A stretch of 64,000 bases of DNA, from positions 248,001-312,000 of the forward strand of contig JALLLT010000003.1 in the NCBI GenBank assembly GCA_025266875.1, read 5' to 3'. The notes under the pieces are model-generated. The model saw only the letters and a list, made by a program, of their open reading frames with translations. It was not told where the DNA came from and did no database searches. Below, piece after piece: positions 4,111 to 47,251 of the stretch (its first letter is position 1; each line of letters starts with the position of its first letter). Source of the stretch: Fennellomyces sp. T-0311 (taxonomy: Eukaryota > Mucoromycota > Mucoromycetes > Mucorales > Lichtheimiaceae). Both the position numbers and the translations under genes were made by a program.

Positions 4111-7100
4111 ATGGTTGATCAGGACCCGCCCGCCATGGAAACTGGTCAGGATACGAAACACAATGCCGTGGTAATTTCTGATTAGGTCAACGTTTGCAAA
4201 CGTGCGCATCTCACTGTCAACTTTATATAAAGAAGAAACGTCCTGGAAGACGGTCACTCAAGAAAGCAGACAAGATCTTGAATCGACCCAGGACGTTGTT
4301 TGATACAGACGGGAATCTTTCCGCACACAACATTCTGGATCCTGAAAGCAGCCCTGCACGATCGACGCGCAACGCCCGTAAGCAGCTCGACGGAGCGGAT
4401 GAATCGTTACCACCGGTGAAGCGACAAAAGCTATATGATCATCGGTCTATGCGCGGCCGTGGCAGAGGTCGACCGCCAAAACGAACCAAGGAAAAGCTGC
4501 TGATGCAGAATCCGCAAACGCCGTTGGACAGTGTGCGTAATGGTGTGTTAACTGACAAGGCAAAAGAGCTACAGACTATTTACGAACACCATGCCAATAC
4601 TGTCAGGGAGCTATATCACCTCGAGATGAATCAAAATATGCTAGACTATGATCCTACGACCGTGGCCACGGGGTCTTATCACGACGAGCGCTTCAACAAG
4701 GTAATTTTGCGCGGCAAGCCTGTTTGATTTTCTGTACTCAAACAACAAAGTTTGCGCAACCGTATGACCTGTGGGACAGGGCAGCAGCGTATTTAGGAGG
4801 AAGTGAGCTGGTTCATATGCTGCAGGACGTCTTTGAGAAGAGCGCAGCAGCACCCGCCGCATCAAAGAAAACTGTTCAGATCTACACCGGCAGCGAAGTC
4901 CGCCGTTTCACTCGACAATACCCAACACTCAAGGACTATCTCTCGTCCTTCGTGTCCATCGACGACAACGAAGACATCACTACCGAAGAAGCCGATGCGC
5001 TGGTCGAGAAAGAAGCGGCCATACGCCAGCGCATCAACGAATTAAACGCGCGCGGCGGCTTCTCCACACGTTTGCAGTCCATCGCCAACCGACGGCCGCA
5101 GCTGGAAAGAGGCAGAAGCGACTGTTTACACGATGCGATTGTGTCAGGAGCCATATCCACGTCCAAACTATTTGCAAACAACTCAAAACACCGACGAAAC
5201 GCAGCCCGCAAGTGCGCTAAAGCAATAGAGCGACACTGGGAGCTGATTCGCACCCACGACGAACGCGTGCAGAAGAACGAAGAGCGAAGGATGATGCGGT
5301 TGGCCAAACGCACGGCTCAGCACGTCATGAAGAAGTGGAAGGTGGTTGAGCGCGTGTGCGAGGCCCGCTACAAGGAAATCTTGAAGGAGGAGCAAGCACA
5401 GGAAGGTCGTCGTCATTTGGAAATGATTCTAGAGCACTCGGAACAAATGCTGGGTGTGCGGATGGAAGAACTGACGTCACGCAAGGCAGTAGTTGAATCG
5501 CCTACTCCATCAGCACCATCACCCGATACCCAGAACCCAGAGCCATCGCCCAAGCCGCCGCCGACGCCGGTCAGTGATGAGGAATATTCGGCGGACGAAG
5601 GCGACGATGATGATCATATCATCTTTGACGACGAAGGGGAGAGCGAGGACGACGACGACGAATTGCGGGAACTTGCGGCTGACCAGGATCTGGACGTGGA
5701 GGCTTTGATCAAAAAGTACAACTATCGACTGGAAAGCGAGGAGGAGGAGGGAGAAGAAGAGGAAGAAGAGAAGGAAGAGTCAGACGGAGATGAGATGGAA
5801 GCAAATAAACCTGCAGCAGGACCTGCACAAGAAAAAGCGAAGGAGGAAATCGACGTTGTTGGAGTTGAAGGGCAGGAGAGCGAAGACGACGACGATCAGA
5901 CAGTCACAGTCTACGGCTCAGACATGACTGACATCGAAGAAGAGGGCGAGCAGCAGAAAGATGCAAGCGAGGCACCCAAAGCATCAGTTGCCGAAGCAGC
6001 CAATGCAGCAACCCAGCAACCGGCGACGCAGCCAACGGGAACTACGCTGTCCACCACCAAGGTCGATACGCAGATACCGTTCCTCCTCCGGGGTACACTG
6101 CGCGAATACCAGCATGTCGGTCTGGACTGGTTAGCAAGCCTGTACAGCAACGGGCTAAACGGTATTCTGGCGGACGAGATGGGTCTTGGTAAGACCATCC
6201 AGACGATATCACTGCTTGCATACCTAGCGTGTGAGATGGGCATCTGGGGACCGCACCTTATCGTTGTCCCGACCAGCGTGATCCTCAACTGGGAGATGGA
6301 GTTCAAGCGCTGGCTGCCAGGATTCAAAATTCTGACATACTATGGCACGCCCAAAGAGCGCAAGGAGAAGCGATCTGGATGGTCCAAGGAGAATGCGTTC
6401 CACGTCTGTATCACGTCATACCAGCTGGTGATTCAGGACCAAAATGTGTTTCGGCGCAAAGCGTGGCAGTATTTGGTACTGGACGAGGCGCACCACATCA
6501 AGAACTTTCGGTCGCAACGGTGGCAAGTGCTGTTGAATTTCAACTCGGCACGCCGACTGCTATTGACAGGCACGCCGCTGCAGAACAATCTCATGGAACT
6601 TTGGTCGCTGCTTTACTTCTTGATGCCTAACGGCGTGTCGCAGACGATGCCCATTGGGTTCGCCAGCCAAAAGGAGTTCCAAGAGTGGTTCTCGCACCCC
6701 GTCGACCGCATGATAGAAGGGCAGCAAGGGATGGACGCGGATTCGCGTGCAGCGATTCAAAAGCTGCATACAGTGTTGCGACCGTACCTGCTGCGTCGTC
6801 TGAAAGCCGACGTCGAGAAGCAGCTACCGGAAAAGCATGAACACGTGGTCTATTGTCGACTATCCAAAAGACAACGCTATCTGTACGATGACTTTATGAG
6901 TCGCGCTAAAACCAAGGAGACATTGGCAAGCGGCAATTTCTTGAGCATCATCAACTGCCTTATGCAGCTCCGTAAAGTGTGTAATCACCCCGATCTGTTC
7001 GAGGAGCGTCCGATCACGACAAGCTTCGCTATGGGAGATGAAGTGCAGTGGTCTGGGCGGCTTATTGAGACGCATGTGCGGAAGCGCCTCAGCATCGAGC

Positions 7101-8811
7101 TGCCGGATCTGAACTCAGTCAATTTAGTGATTGTTCGCGACGAAGAACAGATGTCGTCAGCCGTTTCAGAAGCATACGATCGACTTGATGCAGCCAAACT
7201 GTTTGTCAAGGCCATCGCCAAACACCAGTCGTACATTGATGTTGCCGAGGCTCGTGGCATCACGTCCGGCCGATACCTTGATTTGCGCCACTACGGAGGC
7301 CGCTACGGCTACCACGACCTGAGGAAGTACCAAAAGTACCGCCAGCTGGAGCAGCACTGGGATGCACTCGATCGATGGAAATCGATGATGTATATCAACA
7401 CGTTCCGGTGCGCGCGAAAGCCTATTTTGGGGGCTAGTCTGATTGCTATGTGCCAGAGCGCAACGCAATATTACACCGACGTGTTTTTCCCGGCCAAGGA
7501 CGACGATCGACGCTACCTCGACCGCAGTGACATCACTCGCAGCTGTGTCCTGGGATACCGGGAGCGCATAGAGCAGAATGTGGACATTATCGAGCGGTAC
7601 GGCTTCGTGACTCCTGGTGCAGTGATACGACACTCGCCGTCGGCTGTACCTGAACTTGTTCCTTCAGACGCGCCGATGGAAGTGCAGATGCGACTGCGGA
7701 GGGCACTGGACAACGACATCTTCCACCGGATCCAATCCCGACTGTCAATCGCGTTTCCTGATAAACGGCTTCTCCAGTACGACTGTGGAAAACTGCAGAA
7801 GCTGGACGCATTGCTAAGGCAGCTTGCGGCTGGTGGGCATCGTGCATTGATATTTACTCAGATGACGCGCGTGCTGGATGTTCTCGAGGTTTTTCTTAAC
7901 ATGCACGGGCATCGATATCTGCGACTCGACGGAGCAACAAAGATCGAACAGCGCCAAGTGCTGACGGAGCAATTCAACAGTGATAAGCGGATATTGGCGT
8001 TTATTCTATCTACGCGCAGTGGCGGTCTCGGGATCAATCTCACAGGTGCAGATACCGTCATTTTCTACGACTCGGATTGGAATCCATCCATGGTAATTCG
8101 TATTCCCTCGCCCCTCCCCCCACCTTCCTCTGGCTGCTACCGTCATTCTAACTTGCCCATAGGACAAACAATGCCAAGATCGCACGCATCGAATCGGCCA
8201 AACACGCGATGTCCATATATACCGTTTCGTCACTGAATATACCATTGAGGAGAACATCTTCAAGAAGGCCAACCAAAAAAGGTAATTCCTGATCTTTGCA
8301 ACGATGATCCTAGACTGAGCATCTTCGCAGATTGCTGGACAATGTCGTCATTCAGGAAGGAGGCTTCACAAACGACTACTTCCAAAAGATGGACTGGTGG
8401 CGCGACCTTCCCGAGGTGACGGGCAACAATACGCACGCAGCAACACCCACCATGGACATTGAGCAAGCGCTGCTGCAGGCCGAGGAGGATGAGAACGACG
8501 CACGGGCGGCGATCACGGCGCGTAACGAGATGGACATGGACGAGCGCGAATTTAACGAAGCCCGTCAATCACGCAGTCCGTCGGACTCCCCTGGGCCGTC
8601 GACGGCGACTGTTGTCACACCTGCAGCTGTCACAGGAGCAGATGACGAAGAAGAGCTGGAGGAGCAGATGGCTGTAGAGGACGAGGAGATGCAGCTGACT
8701 GTTGGACACGTCGACCAGTATATGCTGCGGTTCTGGGAGCGAGAGATGTTTGGACACTATCTTGGGTTCGGTGGGCTGGCTGAAGATCACGAACAAATGG
8801 AACATAGCTAA
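4111..8811 (+). CDS. SWR1: SWR1 chromatin-remodelling ATPase
   Basis: Catalytic subunit of the SWR1 complex, which exchanges H2A for H2A.Z in promoter nucleosomes. Exons: 4111-4170, 4233-4700, 4751-8092, 8163-8281, 8331-8811, giving 1489 aa. An HSA domain (about 335-400, for actin/Arp binding) is followed by a Pro-rich and strongly acidic tract (about 430-600, typical for H2A.Z-H2B contact). Snf2 lobe 1 has DEMGLGKT (about 651) and DEAHH (about 753), lobe 2 begins near 1200, and RTHRIGQTRDVHIYRF lies at about 1297. The long insertion between the lobes (about 800-1190) is diagnostic of the INO80/SWR1 branch; HSA and the sequence favour SWR1 over INO80. The ATG at 4111 is the first that joins in frame through the 62-nt intron; the downstream frame lacks an early ATG. 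Stop TAA at 8811. Confidence 0.95.
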
Positions 8812-18261: not shown

Positions 18262-18265
18262 ACAG

Positions 18266-18790
18266 TGTTACGCTACTTTTGGTTCTGAAAACTATAATCT
18301 GTTAAGGTCACTTGGAATGGTAAAACCTTATTGGTTCGTATGAAACCTAAAATTTCCCAGAAACGAATAATTATCCAGAAACGAATCTTTTGTTCAGAAT
18401 ACGAGACCTTGTCCAGAAAAAGATCTTACCAGAATAGCTATCTGCTCCTCCTTAGTGTAATTATCCAGAATAGCTTTAGATTCTAGAAATATATAGCTGG
18501 AAATATATAAGGTATAAATAGAGCGTTCGTATTTTCAATAAACTACAGTTCTTTTTCTGCTAAACTTTACTTTTTAGTTTTTTCTCTTTTGAGACACATT
18601 TAGTTTTTTGTCTAGATATTACTGCAGTTGGCATCCGATTATAAGTCCAAGCTCAAGAACTCCTGCGGTCAATTTAACTAACCTTTTAGGTTACTAACCT
18701 GTATTTAGGTATTATTAGAAAAACTCATTAAGACAAGCTATTCTTGTCAAATTTCAGTTGTGTCTAAATCGATAGAGATACGGCATAACA
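18266..18790 (+). repeat. 5' LTR
   Basis: 525 bp, TGTTA...TAACA ends. It carries a TATA box TATAAATA (18513-18520) and AATAAA (18537-18542), so promoter and poly(A) signals lie within 30 bp. A CCAGAA-containing motif recurs several times in U3 (about 18357-18475). Identical to the copy at 27139-27663. Confidence 0.96.
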
Positions 18791-18793
18791 TCT

Positions 18794-18814
18794 TGGTGCT
18801 CACTACAGGGGTCG
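18794..18814 (+). promoter_or_regulatory. Primer-binding site for a host tRNA
   Basis: TGGTGCTCACTACAGGGG and three more bases begin 3 nt after the 5' LTR. The reverse complement ends in CCA and partitions as a tRNA 3' end: discriminator A, acceptor strand AGTGAGC, T-stem strand CCTGT and loop end CGACC. That is 21 nt of potential pairing. I cannot name the tRNA. Confidence 0.75.
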
Positions 18815-18943
18815 TTTTAAAGAAGATACCCTCAGATAATAAGGAGATAATACGTCATTCCGTCACACCGACGACGAAGATACAAAGTTAGAAAACCTCA
18901 ATCTAAGACTGAGACCGAAGTCAAAACCAAACAAACAAACAAT

Positions 18944-20431
18944 ATGCCGGAAAGCTCCTCTGAGAACAAGAAACACATAGATACTGCACAAGTCATAACA
19001 GCACCATCACCTGTGTTGGTTAGCACCAATAGCGCTTGTTTCAAGCCAAAGCTGATCGATTTCTGCGGCTATGAAGGAGAGGATTTCCGTCATTTCAAAG
19101 AAACCCTAGAATCGTATTTCACAATTACCAATGTGTCTGACAGTGCTCGAAAAGCTGATATCCTAAGAGCACAGTTGAAGAAGTACGCTCGCATTTATTT
19201 ACAAGTCAAAACGAGAAGCAATCATGCACTTAAGGCCAACTATGAGAGTCTCGTTAAACTTCTAGAAGAAGAATATCTCACGGAGGATATTATCGAACAA
19301 TACAAAGATGCTTTTTTTAGACTAAAACAAGGCGAAAACGAATCGCCTCGCACTTTTCTAGCAAGGGTCTACCAAGGAGCCGACTTGGCCAACTTGTATG
19401 GAAAGGAAGGCAACATATTAGTCGAAACCCAATTTAAAAATGGATTACTTCCTCGTGTAAGGAAACATTGTCAGACACAGAATGCAACCGACTTTGACAA
19501 ATATAGACTGTGCGCATATGGATATTGGAGGGGGCAACACGGAACGGTGCTGTATCCTCAAGATAATCCATTTGTTCCTATGAAGGAGGAAGAAAGAATT
19601 CCGCCAGCTTGGTATGATCGACTTGCTCCTTCTAAGGAAGCATTGGATAGAGCCAGAGCACATGCATTGCGGGTGCCCGCTTATGAACCAGGAAGTGAAT
19701 CACCTACTATAGACTCTTTAACCCGACAAATGCAAAACTTAGAGCTATACCAGCATGAAGCGGCAAACAGTAGGTATGGTGCATCAGTACATCAACGACC
19801 CCAAACGGATTGTTACAGTAGCAATGAGCTTGAATCCATGATTCGCAGGATAATTCAGGAAGAGACTAGAAAAACAGCAGATTTCCGTAATCGAAATAAT
19901 AATATGCCACGACGTTTTAACAACAACAGATCCCAGTATCAGAACGGCCCGTCATATAATTATAGAAACGGAAGAATGGATGAAGGCCCTACGAGTCGTA
20001 ATTTCCAGCCCAACCGCCAAAATAATTACAGACAAAATTTTCTATCCAATCCTCAGCAAAATTACCAACCAAACAGAGAAACGTATCGCGCACGCCCAAA
20101 TTCGCCGTCAGGAACAATAGCCGCATTGGTAGAAGAGGAAGAATTCAAGCTTCTTCAGAGAAACAGTCAACATATGGAAGACGATTATGATTGCCTTGAA
20201 AGATATACCGAACTGAAGGAAAATGACTACAGTGAAAATGAATCAGACGAATATGATAATGAATGCGACGAAGAAATATATCACACAGAAAATGAAGAGT
20301 TATTTCCTGCCCGTGAGTTGCGACCAAGGAATGATTCAGGAAGGGTAAAAAAAGTAGACAACCCGCAAAAGAAAGTGGCTTTTCGAGAGTTACCTTTACG
20401 TAGGAAAAGAAGGATCGACAGAACACAGTAA
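18944..20431 (+). CDS. Retrotransposon Gag
   Basis: 495 aa from ATG 18944. The capsid-like retrotransposon Gag region (about 25-190) begins KLIDFCGYEGEDFRHFKETL and continues with helical segments including EEYLTEDIIEQYKDAFFRLKQ. A basic Asn/Arg/Gln-rich stretch (about 320-390) follows, and then a very acidic tail with a basic end (about 400-495). I see no CCHC zinc knuckle; the Asn/Arg-rich segment probably substitutes as nucleic-acid binder (inference). Gag stops at TAA 20431 and coding-like sequence continues in the -1 frame, so the Gag-Pol relation is not a simple fusion. Confidence 0.88.
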   Translation: MPESSSENKKHIDTAQVITAPSPVLVSTNSACFKPKLIDFCGYEGEDFRHFKETLESYFTITNVSDSARKADILRAQLKKYARIYLQVKTRSNHALKANYESLVKLLEEEYLTEDIIEQYKDAFFRLKQGENESPRTFLARVYQGADLANLYGKEGNILVETQFKNGLLPRVRKHCQTQNATDFDKYRLCAYGYWRGQHGTVLYPQDNPFVPMKEEERIPPAWYDRLAPSKEALDRARAHALRVPAYEPGSESPTIDSLTRQMQNLELYQHEAANSRYGASVHQRPQTDCYSSNELESMIRRIIQEETRKTADFRNRNNNMPRRFNNNRSQYQNGPSYNYRNGRMDEGPTSRNFQPNRQNNYRQNFLSNPQQNYQPNRETYRARPNSPSGTIAALVEEEEFKLLQRNSQHMEDDYDCLERYTELKENDYSENESDEYDNECDEEIYHTENEELFPARELRPRNDSGRVKKVDNPQKKVAFRELPLRRKRRIDRTQ

Positions 20432-20508
20432 CGACAAACAACGGAAACACGGTTCCGGAGGTTGCACATGAAAATACCAAGAATGATTCCACTCCACCTG
20501 TCTCAAAC

Positions 20509-20622
20509 ATGGAATTAGATCCTGAAGTAATACAGAATTTGCCTCAACCACCTTCATCAACATTTGGAAGAACCAATTTCACGCGTGAAGAAACGCCTAT
20601 ATGGAAACGACTACAAAAAAAG
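20509..20622 (+). CDS. Short coding-like frame linking Gag and Pol
   Basis: Frame starting ATG at 20509 (MELDPEVIQNLPQPPSSTFG), open from about 20404 and ending at the A7G run at 20615-20622. Composition resembles the neighbouring Pol N-terminus. It may be the true Pol leader entering the main Pol frame by -1 slippage. Otherwise, Pol starts at ATG 20601 and this is vestigial. Confidence 0.45.
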
Positions 20623-22883
20623 CGCCGGTGGGTAGACAATGGACTAAATTCAGAAATGATTTTGAAAAAATGGATTTAGACACCCCTTCGTCAGATAATA
20701 GTGCTCGCACAACTAAGACTGGCACTAAAGTAGTGGATTTGACTACGCCTCAGCAAGGAAGGAAAAAGGTTGCACAATCTAATGTCAAGCAAACCACGAA
20801 AAAGACAACTGCTATAAGAAATGCGGGAAAAACGCAGGTCAAGCGTAGAACGGCCAGCGGACGCATACATATGGCACCAAAGAAAATGGCTCCCTACAAC
20901 ATTTCAGCCGACATCTTGAACAGATCTGCTGATATAAGCGTAGGACAATTAATTTCTATTGTTCCTTCATTACGAAGACAACTAATAGCCTCATGTCGAG
21001 AATCACGCACTCTAGCAGTTTTGGATAATCAAGGATCAGATGCTAATGCACCTTACACCACAGCTTTATATGCTAATTTTGTAGTACACTCTGTCCCAGT
21101 TAAAGCTCTTATTGACTCAGGTGCATCAAAGACATGCTTGTCAAAAGCTTTCATAGACCGCTTAGGAATGCGTATTACAGATCCTTCAGCCGCCATATTT
21201 TTGCTGGGAAATGGAGACCGACAAGCCTCTTTGGGTACTATTGCTAATGTACCATTAAGACCGAACTTTACAAATCCGGTGCCTATAACCATAGAGGTAC
21301 TCCCGGATTGTCCGGTTGACTTGATAGTTGGAAACAATTGGCTATCTAAAGCTCGTGCGCGAATCGATTATGAATCCAAGAAATTATGGATCAACCATGG
21401 AACCACTCGATCTATACCTATAAGTTGTGAACGTCAATCTTCTAAGCCAATCGCTTATACGTCAGTAGAAGATACGGAGGAGGGCTCAGAATCAGGATAC
21501 TCGACAGAATCTACTAGCGATTCAGAAATTGAGATTGAACCAGTAGATCCCGCATTTGAATCTGACAATACACACTCCTCTCCTTTAGATGAAATGTTGG
21601 CTTCAGAATTTTGGTTGGGCGAAGAACTCTTCACAATAAAGGATGATCGCCCAATAAACGTAGATATCCACGAAGGAAGGATCCGAGTAAACACGGTAGA
21701 GGATATATGCCTGGAACCAGATTCGTACTATACTTATGAGGTGCCCATTAAAGGTCGACTATACAACACATATGTATTTGAAAATGGTGAATCACTAGGC
21801 CATGGAATTGACGTATACAGTGGGATACTATATGAAAATGAAAAATCATACCGCGTAACGTTATTGAATATGTCAGATAAATTATTGACATTGCAAGCTA
21901 ATACGTATTTGGGTGATCTTGTACCTGTTACCAATGATTGCAAAGGGTATTATTTGCCAAATCTTGAAGATTTGAATTCCGAGGTCAAGCTAAAATATAA
22001 GTTCCCACCACTTTCCAAAGAACAAGTAGACATGGTAGAGATAGGAAAAATAGACCCTCAAACACGGCAAGAATTTCTCGCACTCTTGGCGGCATACCAG
22101 GACATCTTTGATTGGGATGGCCGCACACTAGGAAGGACGACTAGACTAACATATACCATTCCATTAAAAGAAGATGCAGTACCAGTACGAACCAGACCAT
22201 ATCGGATGGCCCCAGTGGAAAAGGAATTTCTAAAAAAAGAACTCGACCGGATGTGTGAAATGGGAATTATTAGGCCTTCGGCATCTCCTTGGGCTTCTCC
22301 CATTATATTGGTCCCAAAGAAAGATGGTACCTACAGAATCACATGTGATCTGCGCAAACTAAACAAACAACTACGTGTCGATTCGTTCCCTCTTAGCAGG
22401 ATTGATGATCTACTAGATGAATTGGGAAACGCTTCCATATACTCAGTATGCGATATGTCCAGAGGTTATTCACAAGTACCATTAGCCCCCGGAATTAGTA
22501 CAGAATGTACTGGGTTTGTGTGTTGCTTGGGGAGTTATGAGCACTTAACTCTTCCACAAGGCCTCAGCGCCTCGGTTAGCTGTTTCTCACGCCTAGTCAG
22601 TATTTGTTATCGTGCATTGTTAACCTCCGTAAATTCACCTCAAACAATGGTAGCCTATCTAGATGATTTGAATATATTTTCACAAAGTAAGAAGCAGCAT
22701 TTACATGCTTTATCAAAACTCTTCGCTTTAACAAGATATGCAGGCCTCGTATTTAGCCCCCGCAAATGTAGTTTCTTCAAGGAAAAACTAAAGTTTTTGG
22801 GCTACATCGTAAGTAAGGACGGGCTACAAACAGACCCTGAAAAAGTAAAGAAGATTGCAGCATTAGAGACACCAAAACTGTGA
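20601..22883 (+). CDS. Pol: aspartic protease and reverse transcriptase
   Basis: 760 aa. A basic Lys/Thr/Gln-rich N-terminus (1-100) is followed by a retropepsin-like domain with active-site IDSGASKTCLS at about 171 and a conserved partner segment DLIVGNNWLS (about 237). The reverse transcriptase starts near 515 (YRMAPVEKEFLKKELDRM, MGIIRPSASPWASPIILVPK). The polymerase box is YLDDLNIF (about 684), a Y-x-D-D variant, and the thumb/connection reads FLGYIVSKDGLQTDPEKVKK. The frame closes at 22883 with a stop just where the family motif TPKTVKQVRSF would continue; a single base appears missing in an A run. Polypeptide is therefore cut off before RNase H. Confidence 0.9.
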   Translation: METTTKKAPVGRQWTKFRNDFEKMDLDTPSSDNSARTTKTGTKVVDLTTPQQGRKKVAQSNVKQTTKKTTAIRNAGKTQVKRRTASGRIHMAPKKMAPYNISADILNRSADISVGQLISIVPSLRRQLIASCRESRTLAVLDNQGSDANAPYTTALYANFVVHSVPVKALIDSGASKTCLSKAFIDRLGMRITDPSAAIFLLGNGDRQASLGTIANVPLRPNFTNPVPITIEVLPDCPVDLIVGNNWLSKARARIDYESKKLWINHGTTRSIPISCERQSSKPIAYTSVEDTEEGSESGYSTESTSDSEIEIEPVDPAFESDNTHSSPLDEMLASEFWLGEELFTIKDDRPINVDIHEGRIRVNTVEDICLEPDSYYTYEVPIKGRLYNTYVFENGESLGHGIDVYSGILYENEKSYRVTLLNMSDKLLTLQANTYLGDLVPVTNDCKGYYLPNLEDLNSEVKLKYKFPPLSKEQVDMVEIGKIDPQTRQEFLALLAAYQDIFDWDGRTLGRTTRLTYTIPLKEDAVPVRTRPYRMAPVEKEFLKKELDRMCEMGIIRPSASPWASPIILVPKKDGTYRITCDLRKLNKQLRVDSFPLSRIDDLLDELGNASIYSVCDMSRGYSQVPLAPGISTECTGFVCCLGSYEHLTLPQGLSASVSCFSRLVSICYRALLTSVNSPQTMVAYLDDLNIFSQSKKQHLHALSKLFALTRYAGLVFSPRKCSFFKEKLKFLGYIVSKDGLQTDPEKVKKIAALETPKL
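20616..20622 (+). promoter_or_regulatory. Candidate -1 ribosomal frameshift heptamer A AAA AAG
   Basis: In the frame of the 20509 ORF the codons read CAA AAA AAG, so A AAA AAG has the X XXY YYZ phase. A one-base backward slip continues exactly into the long Pol frame (GCG CCG...). A homopolymer length error would look the same. Confidence 0.4.
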
Positions 22884-23547
22884 AGCAGGTGAGAAGTTTT
22901 ATCGGCATGGCTTCATACTATAGGAGGTTTATAGAAGGTTTCAGCAAAATATGCCGACCGTTACATAACCAACAAAAAAGGACCGACCCGCATGGGGAAC
23001 TGCAGAAACAGAAGCTTTTGAAGAGCTAAAAAGAAGACTGTGTACCAGTCCAATTTAGCACATCCCAATTTTGAGGAAAAATTTGAATTCATATGATGCA
23101 AGTCAAAAAGTTTAGGATGCGTCCTCTCGCAACGAGACGAACAGAACCGAGAAAAAGTGATTCTCTATTTAAGCAGAGGACTGAAAGGATCTGAGGTAAA
23201 TTTTCGGCTACAAAATTGGAAATGCTCGCATTAGTATGGAGTGTACGAACACTGCGACCATATTGCTGTCAAAGCCGTTCCTTGTTTATTCAGATCACGT
23301 TAGCATTCGGGGCTTATTAAACACACCTAGACCTGAAGGAATTATAGCCAGATGGCTTACCATTTTAGGCGAATATACATTCGAGGTACGTTATAGAGCT
23401 GGAAGGAAGAATTCCAATGCGGATTATTTGAGTCGATTGGGGAGTGAAAAGCCGATCTTGCAACATATGAAATTTTCATTGAAATATATCTTTTTAAAAA
23501 AAAAAAATATTATTATTCGCTTTGACCAGATTCCGGGAAGTCATTAA
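22884..23547 (+). pseudogene. RNase H segment of Pol, frameshifted
   Basis: Recognisable connection and RNase H pieces appear in rotating frames: VRSFIGMASYYRRFIEGFSK (22888), then EAFEELKRRL, LGCVLSQRDEQNREKVILY, LEMLALVWSVRTLRPY, and intact from 23236 (FLVYSDHVSIRGLLN, IARWLTILGEYTFEVRYRAG). At least five one- to three-base indels fall within about 350 bp (22875-23220), several in homopolymers. Downstream of 23236 the frame is clean until a stop at 23547. Confidence 0.75.
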
Positions 23548-23759
23548 AATCATGCGGGTAATCTAACAATCATAATAAATATAACGTACATGGACTGGGT
23601 CGCGCACTCGGTCATATCAACAAGACACAATTGAAATATTCAACTACGACTATACAACACCTCCAAATTCAAGTACGAATATTACAACGAAGACAACCAA
23701 GTTTTAACAAGTGGAAATATCATTGACAACTTTCAACTGGATCAGTAGGTAAAAAAGTT

Positions 23760-25547
23760 ATGGATCCCACTAAATTGAGTCTGCTACAGTACTATCTTGA
23801 TACTTTAGAGTACCCACCCGGTATTACCAAACAACAACAACGCTACGTCGCCACACAAATCAAGCATTATTTTTCGCACAATAATCGCGTATATCGCCGT
23901 CACTCTCTAGGACCACGCTTGGTGTTGAATCGGCAGCAGGCTGATGATGCTATATATCAATACCATTTTCATACTTTAGGAGGACATTTTTCTCCCTTAG
24001 CAACATACAACAGGATTAGAGCAAAATATTACTGGGAAGGTATGCGCGTAGACATAGAACGTAAATTGAAGGCATGTCATCATTGTCAAGTTGTTGGTAA
24101 GCCTCGCGGTATAAATGAACCTTTGCACCCTATAAAAGCCCCGATCACGCCATTTGAGTTTATATCAATAGACGTTAAACATTTACAACCAAGTAGGTCA
24201 GGGCGTCAGTACATTTTTGTTTGTTGTGATTTATTTACAAAATATGTTATCACGAAGCCTACCAGGCTTGCCAACGCCTCGGAGCTGGCCATTTTTATCT
24301 TTGAAAACATTATTTGTGTCCATTCGACGCCTCGGATCTTGCTGACTGATAATGGTACGAACATGAGGAGTAAAATAGTTGAATCCGTATGCAAAAATTT
24401 CTCGATTACCCACCGTTACACAACATGTTTCCATCCAAGTGGAAATGGCCTCTGCGAAGTAACCAATAGGTCGATTGGCTTAATGATAAAAAAGTGTACG
24501 GAAGAACAAAAGAAAGATTGGGACAGCTATCTGCCAGGTTTAACTTTTAGCTACAACACAAAAGTGCATTCGTCACACAAACGTACCCCTTTCGAGCTAG
24601 TCTATGGAAGGAAGGCTGTAACGCCATTTGATAGGACAATGGAAGACATACCTGAATCTATACCGGAAGAAATGAACGAGAAACAGTTTGATGAATATGT
24701 AAAAGAATTTTTGGCCAAATTATCAAAAATACGTCAAGAAGCTTCCGTTGCTATTGCCCAAGCGCAAGAAACACAAAGGCGAACAATAGATAGGAAGTTA
24801 AATGCAAGACGTCGACATCTAATACAGCCAGGTTTTAACATCGGTGATAAAGTGTTACTATACCGGAATTCAATTGAAACTTCTTGGTCAGGGAAGATTT
24901 TATGGACTTGGACTGGGCCTTACTACATTCATCGGGTTCATGACAACAGCACTTACGAATTGAAAACGGAAAAGGGAGTTCTAGTAAAAGGCAGAACTCA
25001 TGGTAATAGATTAAAAAGCTATTTGACCATGGATATAAATTTTAGACCAAGCTTCACTTCTAAGCCTTTTCTTCCCACTACTACTATGAATTCATCCAAC
25101 GACCAACAAACTCAATTTTCTGCCCCTGTCAACTATGACGAGGTTTTGGCCTTCTTGGAGCAACCTCCATCGTTAACATCAATCCCATCGCCATTGCCGC
25201 TCCCTTCGCCAGCTCAATCTGTCGGAAGGCTTCTATTGGATAATGCCAACGTGCAATCAGGTCGGGAACTACTGTACCCGGAGATCATGAGTGGCCGAGC
25301 CGATTTATGCGATCGCTTGGCTTACTACGTATATAGCAGCCCCGACTTTGAAGAGGCAAGGAAGTCGGAAAAAAATACCGCGCGAATGACCATACTCCGG
25401 CAATGGTTCAGAGACAATGGCATTAGCACGGATATGTTGGAAGAACGACATCCCTTCCACAACAAGTTGAGGATTCGTCTTCAAGAATATAGGAAGAAAT
25501 GGGAGGAGAACGGGCGGCAACCATTGCCCATGATGTTGCCATGGTAA
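23760..25547 (+). CDS. Integrase with GPY/F module and C-terminal extension
   Basis: 595 aa, opening with its own ATG after about 210 bp of multiply stopped sequence. The zinc-binding HHCC domain reads HFHTLGGHFSPLATYN...ACHHCQ (about 62-115). The DDE core has D in FISIDVKHL (about 140), D in LLTDNGTN (about 198) and E in GNGLCEVTNRS (about 237). The C-terminus holds the GPYYIHRVHD form of the GPY/F module (about 384). It ends with a 150-aa extension with a Pro/Ser linker and a helical block (LAYYVYSSPDFEEARKSEKN) I cannot assign. Separate initiation is unusual; splicing, reinitiation or loss of the original fusion are all possible. Confidence 0.88.
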   Translation: MDPTKLSLLQYYLDTLEYPPGITKQQQRYVATQIKHYFSHNNRVYRRHSLGPRLVLNRQQADDAIYQYHFHTLGGHFSPLATYNRIRAKYYWEGMRVDIERKLKACHHCQVVGKPRGINEPLHPIKAPITPFEFISIDVKHLQPSRSGRQYIFVCCDLFTKYVITKPTRLANASELAIFIFENIICVHSTPRILLTDNGTNMRSKIVESVCKNFSITHRYTTCFHPSGNGLCEVTNRSIGLMIKKCTEEQKKDWDSYLPGLTFSYNTKVHSSHKRTPFELVYGRKAVTPFDRTMEDIPESIPEEMNEKQFDEYVKEFLAKLSKIRQEASVAIAQAQETQRRTIDRKLNARRRHLIQPGFNIGDKVLLYRNSIETSWSGKILWTWTGPYYIHRVHDNSTYELKTEKGVLVKGRTHGNRLKSYLTMDINFRPSFTSKPFLPTTTMNSSNDQQTQFSAPVNYDEVLAFLEQPPSLTSIPSPLPLPSPAQSVGRLLLDNANVQSGRELLYPEIMSGRADLCDRLAYYVYSSPDFEEARKSEKNTARMTILRQWFRDNGISTDMLEERHPFHNKLRIRLQEYRKKWEENGRQPLPMMLPW

Positions 25548-26127
25548 TAATTTGCAACAACAATAAAATATATATATTGGTTTTAAAGACTGAACATTAC
25601 AAATTTACTGAACCATTGGATCATGGCTACAAAAACACATTCAAGGCGTTAATTTCAATATGTCAAAGATACATCTCAGAATGATTACTATAAGACTATA
25701 TCATTTTTTTACAAGGTTGCGAAAATCCGATGGCGAACGAATAGTGTTAAGAGTATTATGAAAACTGACTTATAGTATCATAAATTATTCAGCGAACATA
25801 CTATCGATTTAATGGTTAACTAAGTCAAAATCTGGAATTGCGGGGTATAGCAAGATCACGCCTTCAGGAAATTGACATAGTTCTCAGGATGCCAGCCTTG
25901 TGAACCTTAAATTATCTGGAAACCTTAAATTGTCTGGAAACGATATTTTGTGGGGAAACGAAAAAGTATCTGGGAAGAAGAAACCGTTTGCAATACTATG
26001 ACATACCACTAAAAAGAAGACCTTCTTCATTTCAGCAGAGCGTATTATCAGTAGAAAACAAGGGCGTAGTCGAATATAAATATGAGGACTAGGAAGCTTG
26101 AGTTTTCTCATTCAACATCTTATCCAA
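25548..26127 (+). other. Spacer between integrase and accessory ORF, with signals
   Basis: Contains AATAAA at 25562-25567 just after the integrase stop, a short tandem repeat AACCTTAAATT(A/G)TCTGG (two units, about 25904-25938), and a TATA box at 26075-26082. It looks like the end of one transcription unit and the promoter of another, inside the element. Confidence 0.5.
26075..26082 (+). promoter_or_regulatory. TATA box of accessory ORF
   Basis: TATAAATA 46 bp upstream of the ATG at 26128; the same octamer as in the LTR. Confidence 0.5.
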
Positions 26128-26778
26128 ATGTCTTATTCCAGCTCTACACCCTACTCTGTCCCCTCATCCGTATCCAGTTCGAGCAACAATTCAGGCGGCT
26201 CTTTCGACGAACAGTTTTACCAGCTCGAATCGGATCTCACTTCTGTTTTTTCTTCGGTTAAGGAGGAAAAACACGAGCATAGCATTCCTCAATTTGTTCC
26301 GCCCTCAGTTTTTGAAAAAGCAGGCGGTGTGCCAAAGTATGTGCCAGGACGCGATGTGCCTGTTGTGAGCCCAGAGTATGCGGGAGGATCGGTGATAGAA
26401 CGACGTTTCGATCCGGACTTTGTGCCACCTCCATACTATCCACAGCCTGATGGTTTCACAGTGGAGAACACGTTTTTCTACGACCTTACACATGAAATTA
26501 GCTATCAACATCAGTGCCTCCGACTAGCCCAGAAGAATCTGGATACTGTTAGGAGATTGTTGGCTTATAGGATCGCTGCTCGCCTGTACCCGGTGCTCAT
26601 GGCGATCAATGACGAAGCCACTCGTCAGTATACGATCAAGTTATATATTGCTACTCACATCCATGACACGTATACATCGGCGGATGCGCGGCTTCATGTA
26701 CTCGTTAACAACTATTTCAATACGATGGTCCATGAAGGTTTGCCAGCCCACCTTGCAGCCAAAGAAGTTTTTATTTGA
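26128..26778 (+). CDS. Accessory ORF of unknown function inside the LTR element
   Basis: 216 aa, intact, in the position between integrase and 3' LTR where some elements have env. I do not recognise it. It has a Ser/Tyr/Pro-rich N-terminus (1-40), an acidic patch (LESDLTSVFSSVKEEKHEH), a Pro-rich middle (about 60-115) and a helical C-terminal half (about 120-216: QHQCLRLAQKNLDTVRRLLA, LYIATHIHDTY). There is no signal peptide or membrane segment, so it is not an envelope-like protein. TATAAATA lies 46 bp upstream and AATAAA at 27028-27033, suggesting its own transcript. It could be a captured host gene, a second Gag-like protein or a regulator; none can be shown. Confidence 0.6.
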   Translation: MSYSSSTPYSVPSSVSSSSNNSGGSFDEQFYQLESDLTSVFSSVKEEKHEHSIPQFVPPSVFEKAGGVPKYVPGRDVPVVSPEYAGGSVIERRFDPDFVPPPYYPQPDGFTVENTFFYDLTHEISYQHQCLRLAQKNLDTVRRLLAYRIAARLYPVLMAINDEATRQYTIKLYIATHIHDTYTSADARLHVLVNNYFNTMVHEGLPAHLAAKEVFI

Positions 26779-26968: not shown

Positions 26969-27126
26969 ATATATAATTATAAGTGATATGACTAGCCGTT
27001 CTCTCTCTCCCTCTTCCCTTCTTGGGGAATAAATTACTTTGCAATGACTATACGAGCGTTTCCTTCTATTCCGACCATTCTAGCTCAGCATAATTGTGTT
27101 CTATACACGGGACGTGCATCTTACAT

Positions 27127-27134
27127 GGAGGGGG
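27127..27134 (+). promoter_or_regulatory. Polypurine tract
   Basis: GGAGGGGG lies 4 bp before the 3' LTR; the expected plus-strand primer site. Confidence 0.6.
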
Positions 27135-27138
27135 CATA

Positions 27139-27663
27139 TGTTACGCTACTTTTGGTTCTGAAAACTATAATCTGTTAAGGTCACTTGGAATGGTAAAACC
27201 TTATTGGTTCGTATGAAACCTAAAATTTCCCAGAAACGAATAATTATCCAGAAACGAATCTTTTGTTCAGAATACGAGACCTTGTCCAGAAAAAGATCTT
27301 ACCAGAATAGCTATCTGCTCCTCCTTAGTGTAATTATCCAGAATAGCTTTAGATTCTAGAAATATATAGCTGGAAATATATAAGGTATAAATAGAGCGTT
27401 CGTATTTTCAATAAACTACAGTTCTTTTTCTGCTAAACTTTACTTTTTAGTTTTTTCTCTTTTGAGACACATTTAGTTTTTTGTCTAGATATTACTGCAG
27501 TTGGCATCCGATTATAAGTCCAAGCTCAAGAACTCCTGCGGTCAATTTAACTAACCTTTTAGGTTACTAACCTGTATTTAGGTATTATTAGAAAAACTCA
27601 TTAAGACAAGCTATTCTTGTCAAATTTCAGTTGTGTCTAAATCGATAGAGATACGGCATAACA
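27139..27663 (+). repeat. 3' LTR
   Basis: 525 bp, identical to 18266-18790, followed by the ACAG target-site copy at 27664-27667. Confidence 0.96.
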
Positions 27664-28779
27664 ACAGGTATCACATATGATGATTATGTAAAGCAGTCAG
27701 CAGAACGTGATACTTCTTTCAAGTATTATGTCATGTGAACAAATATGCTTGAAGATGAGAAAATGAGAAGATTATACATAACTGCTTGAGATTTTAGGAA
27801 ACGAATAAAGTAACGATTCGGCAATGTTATGTTTGTTGGAACTAAGTCTTCTTTGTTATTTCTAAAATAAAGTTATAAACGAAGATACTAGTTCAGACCA
27901 CGCCGATCTATACTCAACTCACCCCGAATTGCTGTTCCTATACTGTGGATAAATCTTGAGGCTTAATATATTTTGGTTGTACAAACTGTGATTCTGGTAT
28001 ATGCCACAGTTACCGACTTCTTTTTATGTAAAAGGAATATTGGGATTTAATACTATCACAAGAAAGTATCTTTCAGGTTGCCAACGTTAATCGATGTTAT
28101 TCTACAAAGCTATACAAGTAATATTGTTTAACGTATACATTTGTTATTTCTATAGGTGTACTTTATGTAATCGACACCTTGTGGAGCAGGGTCTCCGCTC
28201 CCACCAGAGTCTTTATGGGCCCCTTACTTTTTTTTTATCCCACCACTTTCTGGCTTGTGTCACTTTAATAGGATCGGATCTTGCATGTGCCATTTCACTT
28301 GCACCAGTAACCTTTCTAGTACTCATTAGTTAGCTGACGCGAAAAGTCACTTTCCCATACACTGTCTAATAATGTCATTTTCAGTCCAACAATTTTCAGG
28401 GTCTACTTTGCTACTTTTGACCCTGTCCTAAAGATGGAGTTTAGCGTAAGGAACTTTAAACTGAGTGAAGTCAATTTATATAAGGGCTCAACAGGGCAAA
28501 GGCTCAAACGGCATCGTTAGGTAACCACGGTTATTACCCATCACTACTGGCTCGTCCATATTTTTAAAACGGTCCTTCGGATTCGTTCTTTTAAAATTCC
28601 TTGCCTCACAATATGGGAAGTATGGAATCATGTGCGTTTGACTGACTGTACCCACGCGGGTGTATTAACAAGTTTATACATGCCTCCGAAGAACTAGTAG
28701 TCCATCGATCCCGTTTTTCAGTACATATCGTTTCGGGTAACCTTTCTGTACCGGGGTATTATCCAGAAACACTAAACAT
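27664..28779. other. AT-rich intergenic flank
   Basis: Starts with the ACAG duplication. No supported gene, repeat or RNA seen. Confidence 0.4.
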
Positions 28780-43707: not shown

Positions 43708-44621
43708 GATGTGCGTATAGGATGCCCGGCAACCGAAGGAAGGAGGACTTTGTCTCCCGCTCAGCACTGACTTTTTCTAAATTTTGAGAAGGGCTTTCAT
43801 GTAACGTATCGATATATAAGTCCAGCTTTACAAGATTCAGTGCTTCGCGAGCGCTATTGCTTAAATGGGTCACACTATACTTGTGTTTAAACTTGATCCG
43901 GCTCTTTTTATACTGAATAAGCTTTGGAGAACGAATAATGAATAACTGATCTGTCGTGCGCCCAAGTAATGGAATGGAGCCAACTAACTTAAACCAGGCC
44001 AAGCCAAGCCAAGTATGGGGCTGATAATAGTAATATATATTAGATGTAAGATATATAACCAGTTTAATAACGTACAACTCGTAGATGATTATAACTGTCT
44101 ACGCATAGCTATGCCTTGTACCATCCGTTGGAATGCTTTCAGTTTTATTAATGCCTCGGGTATATTTAGTCACCATAGTTTCGGTTACCTTAGCTATCAT
44201 TGTTGCCATTGCTATTTTCTACGCTTACTCTTATCGGCGGGACACAGAAGGAGAAAAGCGACCGTTCGCTTATAATTAGGCGTCTCGTTATCTAAAAATA
44301 AAAAAAAAATGGGGGAATGCAGTTCAAGTGCCAAGCACCGTGTAATAACAAACATACCAAACTAGCTTGCATTCTGTAACGCATTAAGCCTCGAACGCGC
44401 TAAAAATGACGCAGAGCCAGCTTTGTAAGAAAAGGAATGGCACACCGAGGTGGATCGACAGAAAAGAAAGGCCATGAAGCCTTCCAGTCCATCTTTAGTT
44501 GGGCATTTAAAAGGAGCTCACACTAAAAAGAAAATCGTCTGACACCGACCCACCCCGCTGCACTAAATAAGCAAAAGGTTCGGTTTTGGCTTCAACTCTT
44601 GCTCTTGCCCATTTGTTCACG
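43708..44621. other. Divergent intergenic region
   Basis: Upstream of both U2A' and the O-acetyltransferase gene. Short frames only. A run of 9 A at 44301-44309. Nothing else recognised. Confidence 0.45.
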
Positions 44622-47251
44622 ATGGGAACAAAACTGTCCTTTAATCATGCTCATATAACCATTGGCATTTGCCTGACCTTTTGCCTAGTCTTTATTGCTG
44701 GCATCCTTCGTTTCATAATCGGTAAAGAAAAAAGTATAGCGAAAAAGCGCACAGAACCTGTACCTGACTTTTATGCAAAAGACCCCAAGGACCAGAGTCG
44801 GTGCCAGTCTATGCTCAACGATGGGTGGTGGCAAGACACAAACGAATACACAAGATGGCAACCAGCCGGGTGTATGATGCATACCTACAAAGCACCAGAA
44901 ATCTCTGCGTGTTTGAACCATTCACGCATTCTTTACGTGGGCGATTCGATTGCACGAGAACAATTCTTTTCATTTGCCCGATTAATCCGCGACGATATCG
45001 AAACGGCTGGTCCTAAACATGTCGATCGCAAGTTTGAGTTTAACGATCAACGACTGGTGTTTGAGTTTTGGTGGGACCCTTACCTCAACGAGTCGCGCAC
45101 CATTGATATGTTAAAGACGTCCGATCCAACGATCCAGCCGAGTTTATTGGTGTTGGGAAGCGGTGCCTGGTATATGCGATATCTCGGCGAAGATGTGTTT
45201 CGAGAAGATTGGCAAGATGCAATGGATCGCGTGTTTGATGCCGTTCAACGGTCTAGTCGTGTTGCAGATGCCGTTATCTTATCCCCCGTCGAAGTGCCTA
45301 ACTTTGACCTACTGTCGCCTGATCGCGTCCGCACCATGTCGATCGATAAAGTCAACAGCATGAATGCCTATTTGAACCAAAAGTCCAACTCAATCACGCC
45401 ATTGACTCCCATGACCATACCGTTCGTGTGGAATACGGTGTCGAGCAACGCACATAATGTCACAGCAGACGGTCTTCACTTTACTCAGCCTGTCACCAGC
45501 ATGCAGGTCCAGCTGGCGTTGAACTATCGCTGTAACGAACAATTGCCGAAGCATTTCCCCATGGACAGCACCTGCTGTTACCACTACCCGGCTCCAAAGT
45601 GGTACCAATGCGTGTTCTTTATCGCATTCCTGGTGTGGGCCCCACTGGGACTGTACATGTCAGCATCCGGTAAGTATCTACCAATGCATAAAAGAAGCCA
45701 TGGGGCGGGAGAGAGTACAAACAGGTTACTCATTAAAGATGGGCACACGAAAAAGAAGGGAGACTGTCCAAGCTGGTCCAGATGGCGATACCTTCGGAAT
45801 CGGTTCTCAACGCACTGTTTATATTTGGCTTGGGAGTGATCTACATGTATTTTGGAGATCGAACGCAGCTTTTCGGAAAAGCACAAAAGCACTTTGATCC
45901 GCTGGTGTTTACCCTGTTTCTTCTGGTAACCTTGGCCGCGGGCGTTCTTACGCTCAAGGTCAAAAAGGAGGGAGACCAGGGCTTTCTCAACCGCGACCAG
46001 ACGGACGAGTGGAAGGGATGGATGCAGGTCATCATTCTCATCTACCACTTCCTTGGTGCATCCTCTGTCTCCGGAATCTACAACCCGGTGCGTGTGCTCG
46101 TCGCCGCGTATCTATTCCAGACCGGATACGGCCACTTTTTCTTTTTCTACAAGAAGGCTGACTTTGGCATTGGTCGCGTTTTGAACGTCATGATCCGCCT
46201 CAATCTGCTCACCTTTGTGTTGCAGTATGTCATGGACACCGATTATCTCAGCTACTACTTTACGCCTCTGGTGTCATTCTGGTTCTTTATCATCTGGACC
46301 ACGATGTACGTTGGTCACGGCTCCAACAAGTCCGGCTGGTTTCTGCTATGCAAGCTATTCATTGCCTTTGCAACAACCACCATTATTATCCATGCACCCG
46401 GTGTCCTAGAGGACTTGTTTTCCGGACTCGAGTTTCTGTTCAACATTCGATGGAATGCGAGCGAGTGGCGCTTCCGACTGGCACTGGATGCGTACATTGT
46501 ATATGTGGGTATGCTGAGCGCGTATGCAACCATCAAATTCACGGAGCATCGTATGCATGAACATCCATGGTGGCATACGGCAAAAAAAGTTAGCATGGCC
46601 ATTTCTGCAGTGCTTTTGTTTGTCTATTTCGTGTTTGAGCTCTCGGTCGCCAACAAGTTCATCTATAATACCATCCACCCGTACATTTCATGGTTGCCCA
46701 TTCTGGCATTCGCCTTCCTGCGAAACGCAACCGTCAAGCTGCGCAACACATCGTCTCGATTCTTTATTTTCTTCGGACGCATCTCACTAGAAACATTCAT
46801 CGGCCAATTCCATATGTGGTTAGCAGGCGATACCAAGGGCCTGCTAGTCGTCATCTCGCACCCACGAGCGACCCATGGCCTCGGCTGGTACTTTAACCTT
46901 GCGGTGTCAAGTGGTCTCTTTGTATTTGTGTGTTATTATCTGAGCCAGACAACAGGCGAGCTCACGCGATGGTTATGCTCTGTAATTACAGCTGCTGAGA
47001 GCCGTGGGACTGCCCAGTATCATGCAGTGCCACTCCTGCCGACAACAACCACAAGACAGGATCCTGCATCCACTGCAACCGCATCTGAACCCGAAAGCGG
47101 CGGCGTACAGGGGGATACCAATGTCGATGATGGACTAACGGATGTAACAGCTTCACCGCAAGGATCGAAGATTACGAGCTTCTTCAATGATGCGCGCGTT
47201 AGAACGGGCATCGCCGTATTAGCTATCGGCTTGCTTAATAACCTTTGTTAG
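44622..47251 (+). CDS. Cas1/CASD1-like glycan O-acetyltransferase
   Basis: Two exons, 44622-45669 and about 45759-47251 (846 aa with this acceptor; 45756 would also keep frame, adding one residue). An N-terminal membrane anchor (about 10-30) precedes a lumenal SGNH/GDSL-like esterase fold with YVGDSIAREQ (Ser about 109) and the D-x-x-H pair in TADGLHF (about 283-286). A multi-pass Cas1p domain of a dozen or so hydrophobic helices runs from about 330 to 770, including FGDRTQLFGK, YHFLGASSVSGIYNPVRV and RISLETFIGQFHMWLAGDT. The tail is Ser/Thr-rich with a last hydrophobic patch. Family members O-acetylate polysaccharides in the Golgi (Cryptococcus capsule glucuronoxylomannan, animal sialic acid); the substrate here is unknown. 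The first in-frame ATG is at 44622. Confidence 0.93.

Follow-up and report, generated by a model that had tools for sequence, protein, structure and literature searches.

Fungal Ty3/Gypsy elements are usually drawn with gag and pol only, and accessory genes with a promoter of their own are a textbook feature of the foamy viruses. In these viruses (Spumaretrovirinae), small accessory genes (tas/bet) lie in the sense orientation before the 3' LTR, with a TATA-containing internal promoter; this promoter gives rise to Tas, which in turn acts on the LTR (PMC3798896). LTR retrotransposons with additional genes are described as well. Bdelloid rotifer elements carry lineage-specific extra ORFs past pol, called ORF3s (GDSL, DEDDy, coiled-coil, TM), whose types vary among related lineages and which are described as products of spliced messages (PMC5408684). 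Plant elements such as Bagy2, Grande (gene23), Retand and RIRE2 have an additional ORF (aORF) between pol and the 3' LTR; it is antisense in Grande, Retand and RIRE2, the sense ones include env-like genes, and Grande gene23 has a promoter of its own (PMC7264820). The extra ORF of Boty (Botrytis/Sclerotinia) is antisense (PMC7264820), and CERV of the C. elegans element Cer1, an accessory protein beyond gag-pol linked to nuclear export of the genomic RNA, is made by splicing and has G and M domains (PMC10309623).

We analysed a stretch of 64,000 nucleotides (hereafter the window) from Fennellomyces sp. T-0311 (Mucorales, Lichtheimiaceae), in which an LTR retrotransposon carries an accessory gene, ORF3, past its integrase. 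The layout is close to that of the foamy viruses, but the foamy promoter lies inside env, whereas here there is no env and the putative promoter lies in a non-coding spacer. Moreover, no sequence or fold relation was found in a comparison that left Tas itself outside, and no motif common to the LTR and the internal promoter was found in two of the three subfamilies described below (B and C). The bdelloid ORF3s differ in that no GDSL, exonuclease or TM signature is seen here. Unlike the plant aORFs, the Fennellomyces ORF3 combines the sense orientation with the lack of a membrane segment and a TATA box of its own, and CERV and the Boty ORF are set apart by their descriptions. Among the literature matches listed, most subscription papers being outside the scope of the search, we found no description of ORF3 and none combining 'Fennellomyces' with 'retrotransposon'.

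The element that carries ORF3 is a Ty3/Gypsy-type LTR retrotransposon, as typed by its LTRs, its target duplication and its domain order (Table 1). Since the LTR pair is identical and the element is flanked by a direct repeat, ORF3 lies within a complete insertion; the 4-bp duplications differ among copies (CTAC for C150, ACGT for C157 and ACGG for C141). In the window copy, Pfam detected the integrase, the reverse transcriptase (RT) and an aspartyl protease, to which the open frames of C150 and C141 add RNase H, so that the order protease, RT, RNase H, integrase was found over these three copies, the integrase being a separately started ORF. In C150, gag-pro-RT-RH forms a single open frame of 1504 aa that is matched by both Pfam RNase H models. 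Gag matches were weak in the window copy (E 0.09-0.13). We looked for late-domain or zinc-knuckle logic in Gag and rejected it, since none of the three gag-pol frames examined (L027, L032, L036) contained a PPxY motif or a CCHC zinc knuckle (C..C....H....C). The C166 gag-pol frame has one P[TS]AP and that of C141 one YP-type site.

Table 1. Features of the element carrying ORF3, with positions counted from the first letter of the window.
Feature	Position	Strand	Basis and remarks
Target-site duplication ACAG, 5' copy	18262..18265	.	3' copy 27664-27667; read from flanks
5' LTR	18266..18790	+	525 bp, TGTTACG...CATAACA; self-comparison of window, 100% identical to 27139-27663
Probable primer-binding site	18794..18810	+	begins TGG, 3 nt past LTR; from sequence
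gag frame, first part of gag-pro-RT-RH ORF (broken in window copy)	18944..20431	+	assigned by position
Protease and reverse transcriptase frame (aspartyl protease, RVT_1)	20601..22883	+	Pfam
RNase H frame remnant, broken in window copy	23236..23547	+	ORF list, comparison with C150
22-nt non-coding motif, RH-integrase gap	23535..23556	+	also contig C106 271535-271556; 24 genome matches, reversed control 0
Integrase ORF (H2C2, rve) with fused C-terminal extension	23760..25547	+	Pfam
Counterpart of the separate small ORF of B and C, in frame with integrase in window copy	25086..25547	+	comparison of copies
AATAAA directly past integrase/small-ORF stop	25562..25567	+	also in B (overlaps stop) and C (about 65 nt on)
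TATAAATA, putative internal-promoter core	26075..26082	+	53 nt upstream of ORF3 ATG
ORF3, 216-aa accessory protein	26128..26778	+	open frame, genome matches, dN/dS
P-P-P-Y-Y-P codons (residues 100-105), PPxY-type motif	26425..26442	+	alignment
Predicted C-terminal helical domain codons (residues 120-203)	26485..26736	+	AlphaFold2, block mean pLDDT 74-90
AATAAA past ORF3	27028..27033	+	from sequence
Probable polypurine tract GGAGGGGGCATA before 3' LTR	27127..27138	+	from sequence
3' LTR	27139..27663	+	self-comparison

ORF3 is open over its 216 codons without internal stop. A protein search of the genome gave 16 matches, which form three subfamilies saturated at synonymous sites: A (the window copy, C95, C150, C172, C47 and C173, plus the partial C158 and C157:10549), B (C141, C115, C134, C39 and C157:40657; 62-66% identity over the match) and C (C2, C166 and C157:23709; 55-59% over the match). 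The ORF3 DNA is identical in four A copies, the window copy among them, and the C39 copy has lost 9 codons in frame. An ORF3 match lay downstream of the integrase in all 14 A-C integrase loci and was open in 11; these counts are lower bounds since 95 of 254 integrase candidates were scored, and integrase matches at 30% identity or less were not counted as A-F (the A-C loci reach 43% or more in pieces). As 12 of the 16 matches are open from ATG to stop, including C2 and C166, which are 49-50% identical over the whole protein, and as differences fall mostly at third codon positions (68, 45 and 137 at positions 1, 2 and 3 between A and B), ORF3 is not a chance frame. From the 12 open copies we left out C39, C47 and three identical ones, and fitted codon models to the remaining 7. 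Between A and B, dN is about 0.30 with dS saturated, and likelihood-ratio tests against omega=1 gave P=1e-32 for A-B, 3e-25 for A-C and 5e-27 for B-C. Purifying selection was significant in two of the four unsaturated close pairs (window-C173, omega 0.17, P=9e-5; C2-C166, omega 0.10, P=3e-6), the other two being the within-B pairs C141-C115 (omega 0.26, P=0.09) and C141-C134 (omega 1.04, P=0.94). The A-B dN was lower for the integrase (0.14) and gag-pol (0.12) and higher for the small ORF described below (0.91).

Outside this genome, profile searches of about 5.8 billion proteins found relatives in Zychaea mexicana (P0005) and Circinella umbellata (P0007) and one further relative, P0006. The P0007 gene model is a fusion in which, by eye, a small-ORF-like start is followed by ORF3 pieces at the end, pieces only; because of this order Circinella also seems to have the small ORF and then ORF3. 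We aligned 8 of the 12 open Fennellomyces copies (alignment A2), and six of these together with P0005 and P0006 (alignment A3), leaving aside P0002-P0004, which come from the same genome, and the fused P0007. Conservation is concentrated at the C-terminus: the last 104 residues are 76% identical to B, 62% to C, 51% to Zychaea P0005 and 48% to P0006, against only 25-32% to the same four relatives for the N-terminal 68 residues. Taken together, these results show that ORF3 is borne by the element, within LTR-LTR insertions, and that it is conserved and selected, being kept open in diverged subfamilies. An earlier, sequence-only reading of the window had proposed that the intact 216-aa ORF between integrase and 3' LTR may be an accessory gene; the frame is indeed open in a complete insertion, and other copies of the family carry it under purifying selection between subfamilies. 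Its alternative suggestion of a new acquisition is not supported, because ORF3 predates the three saturated subfamilies and has relatives in two other genera.

The same reading had also seen a hint of separate constraint on ORF3 in its being intact next to a broken RNase H. That ORF3 is constrained is borne out by the dN/dS analysis, but the argument from RNase H does not stand. Between the window copy and C150 there is not one difference in the LTRs, the integrase, the spacer, ORF3 or the stretch past ORF3, whereas the segment from the leader to RNase H (4.7 kb; 18791-23440) has 2 substitutions and 11 gap runs totalling 18 nt, all 11 on the window side; between RNase H and integrase, each of the two copies shows a single gap run. 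This points to recent damage or an assembly error as the origin of the break in the gag-to-RNase H frame. The frame is whole in C150, and its break in the window copy carries no information on a separate constraint of ORF3.

We then looked at the protein. The window ORF3 matched no Pfam family; its homologues gave only weak unrelated Pfam matches (best E 0.013), none of them a GDSL or exonuclease family. There was no PDB sequence match (best E 0.79 for the profile against PDB), no BFVD match at E<=0.001, with no viral contig confirmed, and no relation to other proteins of the elements that carry it (gag, pro, RT, RH, IN; P 0.1-0.6). The absence of a recognisable domain, already remarked on from the letters, thus extends to Pfam, PHROGs and PDB, none of which gave a convincing match. 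Kyte-Doolittle means over 19 residues peak at 0.91 in the window ORF3 and at 0.52 to 1.52 across the 8 aligned proteins, where the usual membrane cut-off is about 1.6; no membrane segment is therefore evident, and the view that the gene is not env-type is upheld. An AlphaFold2 model from 8 sequences has low confidence over the first 120 residues (block means 36-49) and predicted helices at residues 120-158, 163-177, 181-184 and 187-203 in the C-terminal part, with a whole-chain pTM of 0.39; it gave no convincing known fold and no fold match indicating a function. Of the N-terminal 68 residues, 24 are Ser or Pro, 8 are acidic and 3 basic. Outside the helices, the motif that stands out most is D-x-x-F-x-P-x-P-x-Y, which is invariant in the 8 aligned rows. 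A PPxY is present at the site of residues 100-105 in 7 of the 8 aligned proteins (4 of 5 lineages), P0006 having PSPLY; the C and Zychaea proteins have a second PPxY elsewhere, and the C39 copy has lost the motif. The block mean pLDDT at this site is 47, and chance alone yields a PPxY in 5-15% of cases when the whole protein is shuffled and in 5-26% when the N-terminal half is.

Each of the signals that the sequence-only reading had placed around ORF3, the TATA box and the two AATAAA, is present, and similar signals accompany the gene in A, B and C. A TATAAAT precedes the ORF3 ATG at 53 nt in A (window), 47 nt in B (C141) and 61 nt in C (C166), the A copy at C173 having TATAAAA instead, and the upstream stretches of the three subfamilies are otherwise too diverged to be aligned by eye. 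With 4000 dinucleotide shuffles each, an exact TATAAAT at 40-70 nt had P values of 0.0125 (A), 0.013 (B) and 0.006 (C), and TATAWAW of 0.03, 0.05 and 0.02, respectively. An AATAAA follows the upstream gene in all three (15 nt after the stop in A) and another one follows ORF3; the latter lies between ORF3 and the LTR in B and about 10 nt into the LTR in C, as judged by eye and if the LTR begins TGTTACG as in A and B. Since TATAAAT recurs in A, B and C and an AATAAA closes off the upstream gene, ORF3 is probably a Pol II unit separate from the pol unit upstream of it, equipped with a TATA box and a poly(A) signal of its own. The 50 nt adjoining the ATG are no more conserved between close copies than the remaining spacer (3/50 differences in A, 4/50 in C).

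A foamy-like feedback through a motif common to the LTR and the internal promoter was also considered. In no subfamily did the exact 9-mers common to the LTR and the ORF3-upstream stretch outnumber those of the highest of 30 shuffles; B came nearest, with 8 against the reversed LTR compared with a shuffle mean of 1.9 and a maximum of 9. The hexamer TCCAGA/TCTGGA, chosen post hoc, was enriched in both the LTR and the ORF3-upstream stretch only in A; in B it was enriched in the LTR and not upstream of ORF3, and in C in neither. The idea was dropped, as what is seen in A does not carry over to B or C. We also noted that the spacer preceding ORF3 at L033 (7047-7974) exceeds that of C141 by about 430 nt and contains additional TATA-like sites.

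ORF3 is not the only extra gene of the element. A smaller ORF follows the integrase in B (126 aa, 7 nt past the stop, frame +1; L032 7165-7545) and in C (148 aa, 2 nt past the stop, frame -1; L036 6851-7297, reversed locus), and in A the related stretch is fused in frame to the integrase. This small ORF evolves under purifying selection (omega 0.20 for C141-C134, P=8e-8; omega 0.14 for C2-C166, P=4e-4), and the spacing between integrase stop and small-ORF start suggests reinitiation or a similar coupling. Its predicted helices span residues 3-10, 16-60, 64-86, 91-94 and 99-124, and from the second one on they repeat, in the predicted models, the order of the ORF3 domain (long, medium, short, medium). 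A duplication linking the small ORF and ORF3 was examined on this basis, and the profile comparison was not significant (P=0.13, collinear); as only the predicted helix order agrees and the sequence profiles give no support for homology, the duplication remains a suggestion.

The slot past the integrase is also occupied in sister lineages D, E and F, whose integrases are about 33-41% identical to that of the window. At one locus each, the extra ORF has 318 aa in E (L040 1911-2867), 232 aa in D (L041 1732-2430) and 256 aa in F (L042 1654-2424), and none showed convincing similarity to ORF3; kinship with ORF3 was rejected on profile comparisons (P=0.024 with E, 0.31 with D and 0.59 with F). A relationship is suggested only between the ORFs of E and F (P=6e-5), and a joint E/F profile matched a single protein, from the Fennellomyces genome. 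Again among the 95 of 254 candidates scored, the lineage's own ORF was matched downstream in 17 of the 18 D-F integrase loci (E 8, D 5, F 4; some broken), the exception, C113:52692, having three stops and no ORF match. Because these loci hold other ORFs downstream of the integrase, the slot is general in the group and its content differs. In a more distant element on C94 (L043, integrase 28%), the 1.8 kb past the integrase lacks any ORF reaching 100 aa on the same strand. TATA elements precede the extra ORF of D and E by 69-84 nt (84 nt in one, 69-71 nt in the other), in AT-rich DNA, and in F only at 19 nt. By eye, the E and F ORFs have basic C-termini. Two pieces of the D ORF (residues 192-229 and 1-50) were met at each of C95:711325-711607, C113:232724-233006 and C2:182783-183065, without a D integrase nearby among the matches listed; they are perhaps deletion derivatives.

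A single pol polyprotein is usual for Ty3/Gypsy elements. Here the integrase starts at its own ATG after a non-coding gap past the RNase H stop, in the window copy as well as at L040, L041, L042 and L043. In A, B, E and F this gap contains, once or twice, a 22-nt motif, GGGADGTCRTTAAAMTCAHNCG (besides the window, L044 at 665, L046 at 595 and 704, and L032 at 5601 and 5648). C (C166) has a degenerate form, and the motif is absent from the D locus and the C94 element. Genome-wide, its 24 matches were counted at no more than 1 mismatch with a pattern derived from the same copies, and 21 of the 24 immediately precede an integrase among the matches listed. The motif may serve integrase expression.

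Other readings of ORF3 have to be set against these data. It could be a real accessory gene whose protein comes from a spliced subgenomic RNA that starts in the LTR, like retroviral env or Cer1 CERV, the TATA box being incidental in AT-rich DNA. Spliced messages are described as the typical source of LTR-retrotransposon ORF3s (PMC5408684), and single TATAWAW matches have shuffle P values of only 0.02-0.05 each. We nevertheless hold this unlikely, since all three saturated subfamilies have a TATA box at much the same distance and each has an AATAAA past the upstream gene. Capture of a host gene by the element (transduction), for instance before the split of the three genera, would agree with the gene-like signals that ORF3 has of its own and with an unrelated ORF in the same slot of the sister lineages; however, a six-frame search of the genome at E<=0.001 found no homologue beyond the 16 matches, of which 14 adjoin an A-C integrase, the other two being the partial copy C158 and the contig-end copy C115, and we consider such an origin quite improbable.

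An env remnant or env-like gene is suggested by the position of ORF3, in the sense orientation between the integrase and the 3' LTR, but this has very little probability in view of the low hydropathy maxima of the 8 homologues, of a predicted C-terminal domain that is helical with a low-confidence remainder, and of a frame and domain that are conserved rather than decayed. Finally, the window element is young, with identical LTRs and an ORF3 identical in 4 copies, so ORF3 might be a chance open frame kept only through the youth of the insertion. We give this practically no credit: the protein sequence is kept in B, C, Zychaea and Circinella (for the latter in the pieces of the fusion model), and the between-subfamily dN/dS tests refute it.

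Altogether, we think it likely that ORF3 has long been established as an accessory gene in a Mucorales Ty3/Gypsy-type lineage. It is probably a separate Pol II unit, and we infer its product to be a trans-acting adaptor or regulator. The protein would be made from the internal promoter, in a layout that parallels the foamy-virus one, and would act in trans in the life cycle of the element itself. Its Ser/Pro-rich, acidic and probably disordered N-terminal half would present the PPxY motifs, while the conserved C-terminal helical domain may bind a partner or form oligomers. As to the precise role, our tentative first choice is a regulator, transcriptional or anti-silencing, that the internal promoter would express; an adaptor recruiting a WW-domain (Nedd4/Rsp5-type) ubiquitin ligase through a predicted PPxY contact is possible too, if a little less probable. 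An RNA chaperone or export factor seems unlikely, and some other role unlikelier still.

A broader scheme, doubtful at present, would make these Mucorales elements a complex retroelement lineage that arrived, independently of the foamy viruses, at a gene layout with several expression units. It would combine an LTR-driven gag-pro-RT-RH unit, an integrase separately initiated with the conserved 22-nt motif, and an own-promoter accessory slot with fast-evolving content that differs by lineage. In A-C, this slot would hold two similarly laid-out helical proteins (the small ORF and ORF3), possibly from an ancient duplication, ORF3 being the trans-acting regulator. A selected and separately expressed gene at this place in a fungal element would show that retroelements evolve regulatory genes even in walled cells, where an envelope is of little use; such genes perhaps counter host RNAi or chromatin silencing or recruit host machinery. 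ORF3 and the ORFs of the sister lineages make up a concrete family to seek in other early-diverging fungi, and the young copies with an open ORF3 allow expression to be measured.

Elsewhere in the window, positions 4724-8236 hold an HSA and SNF2 helicase gene, which we take by its domains to be SWR1/INO80-like. At 44586-47251, a Cas1p-type 10-TM acyltransferase gave a strong match; a frame that overlaps it has a PC-esterase match below the cut-off, and the two are probably parts of one intron-containing CAS1-like gene.
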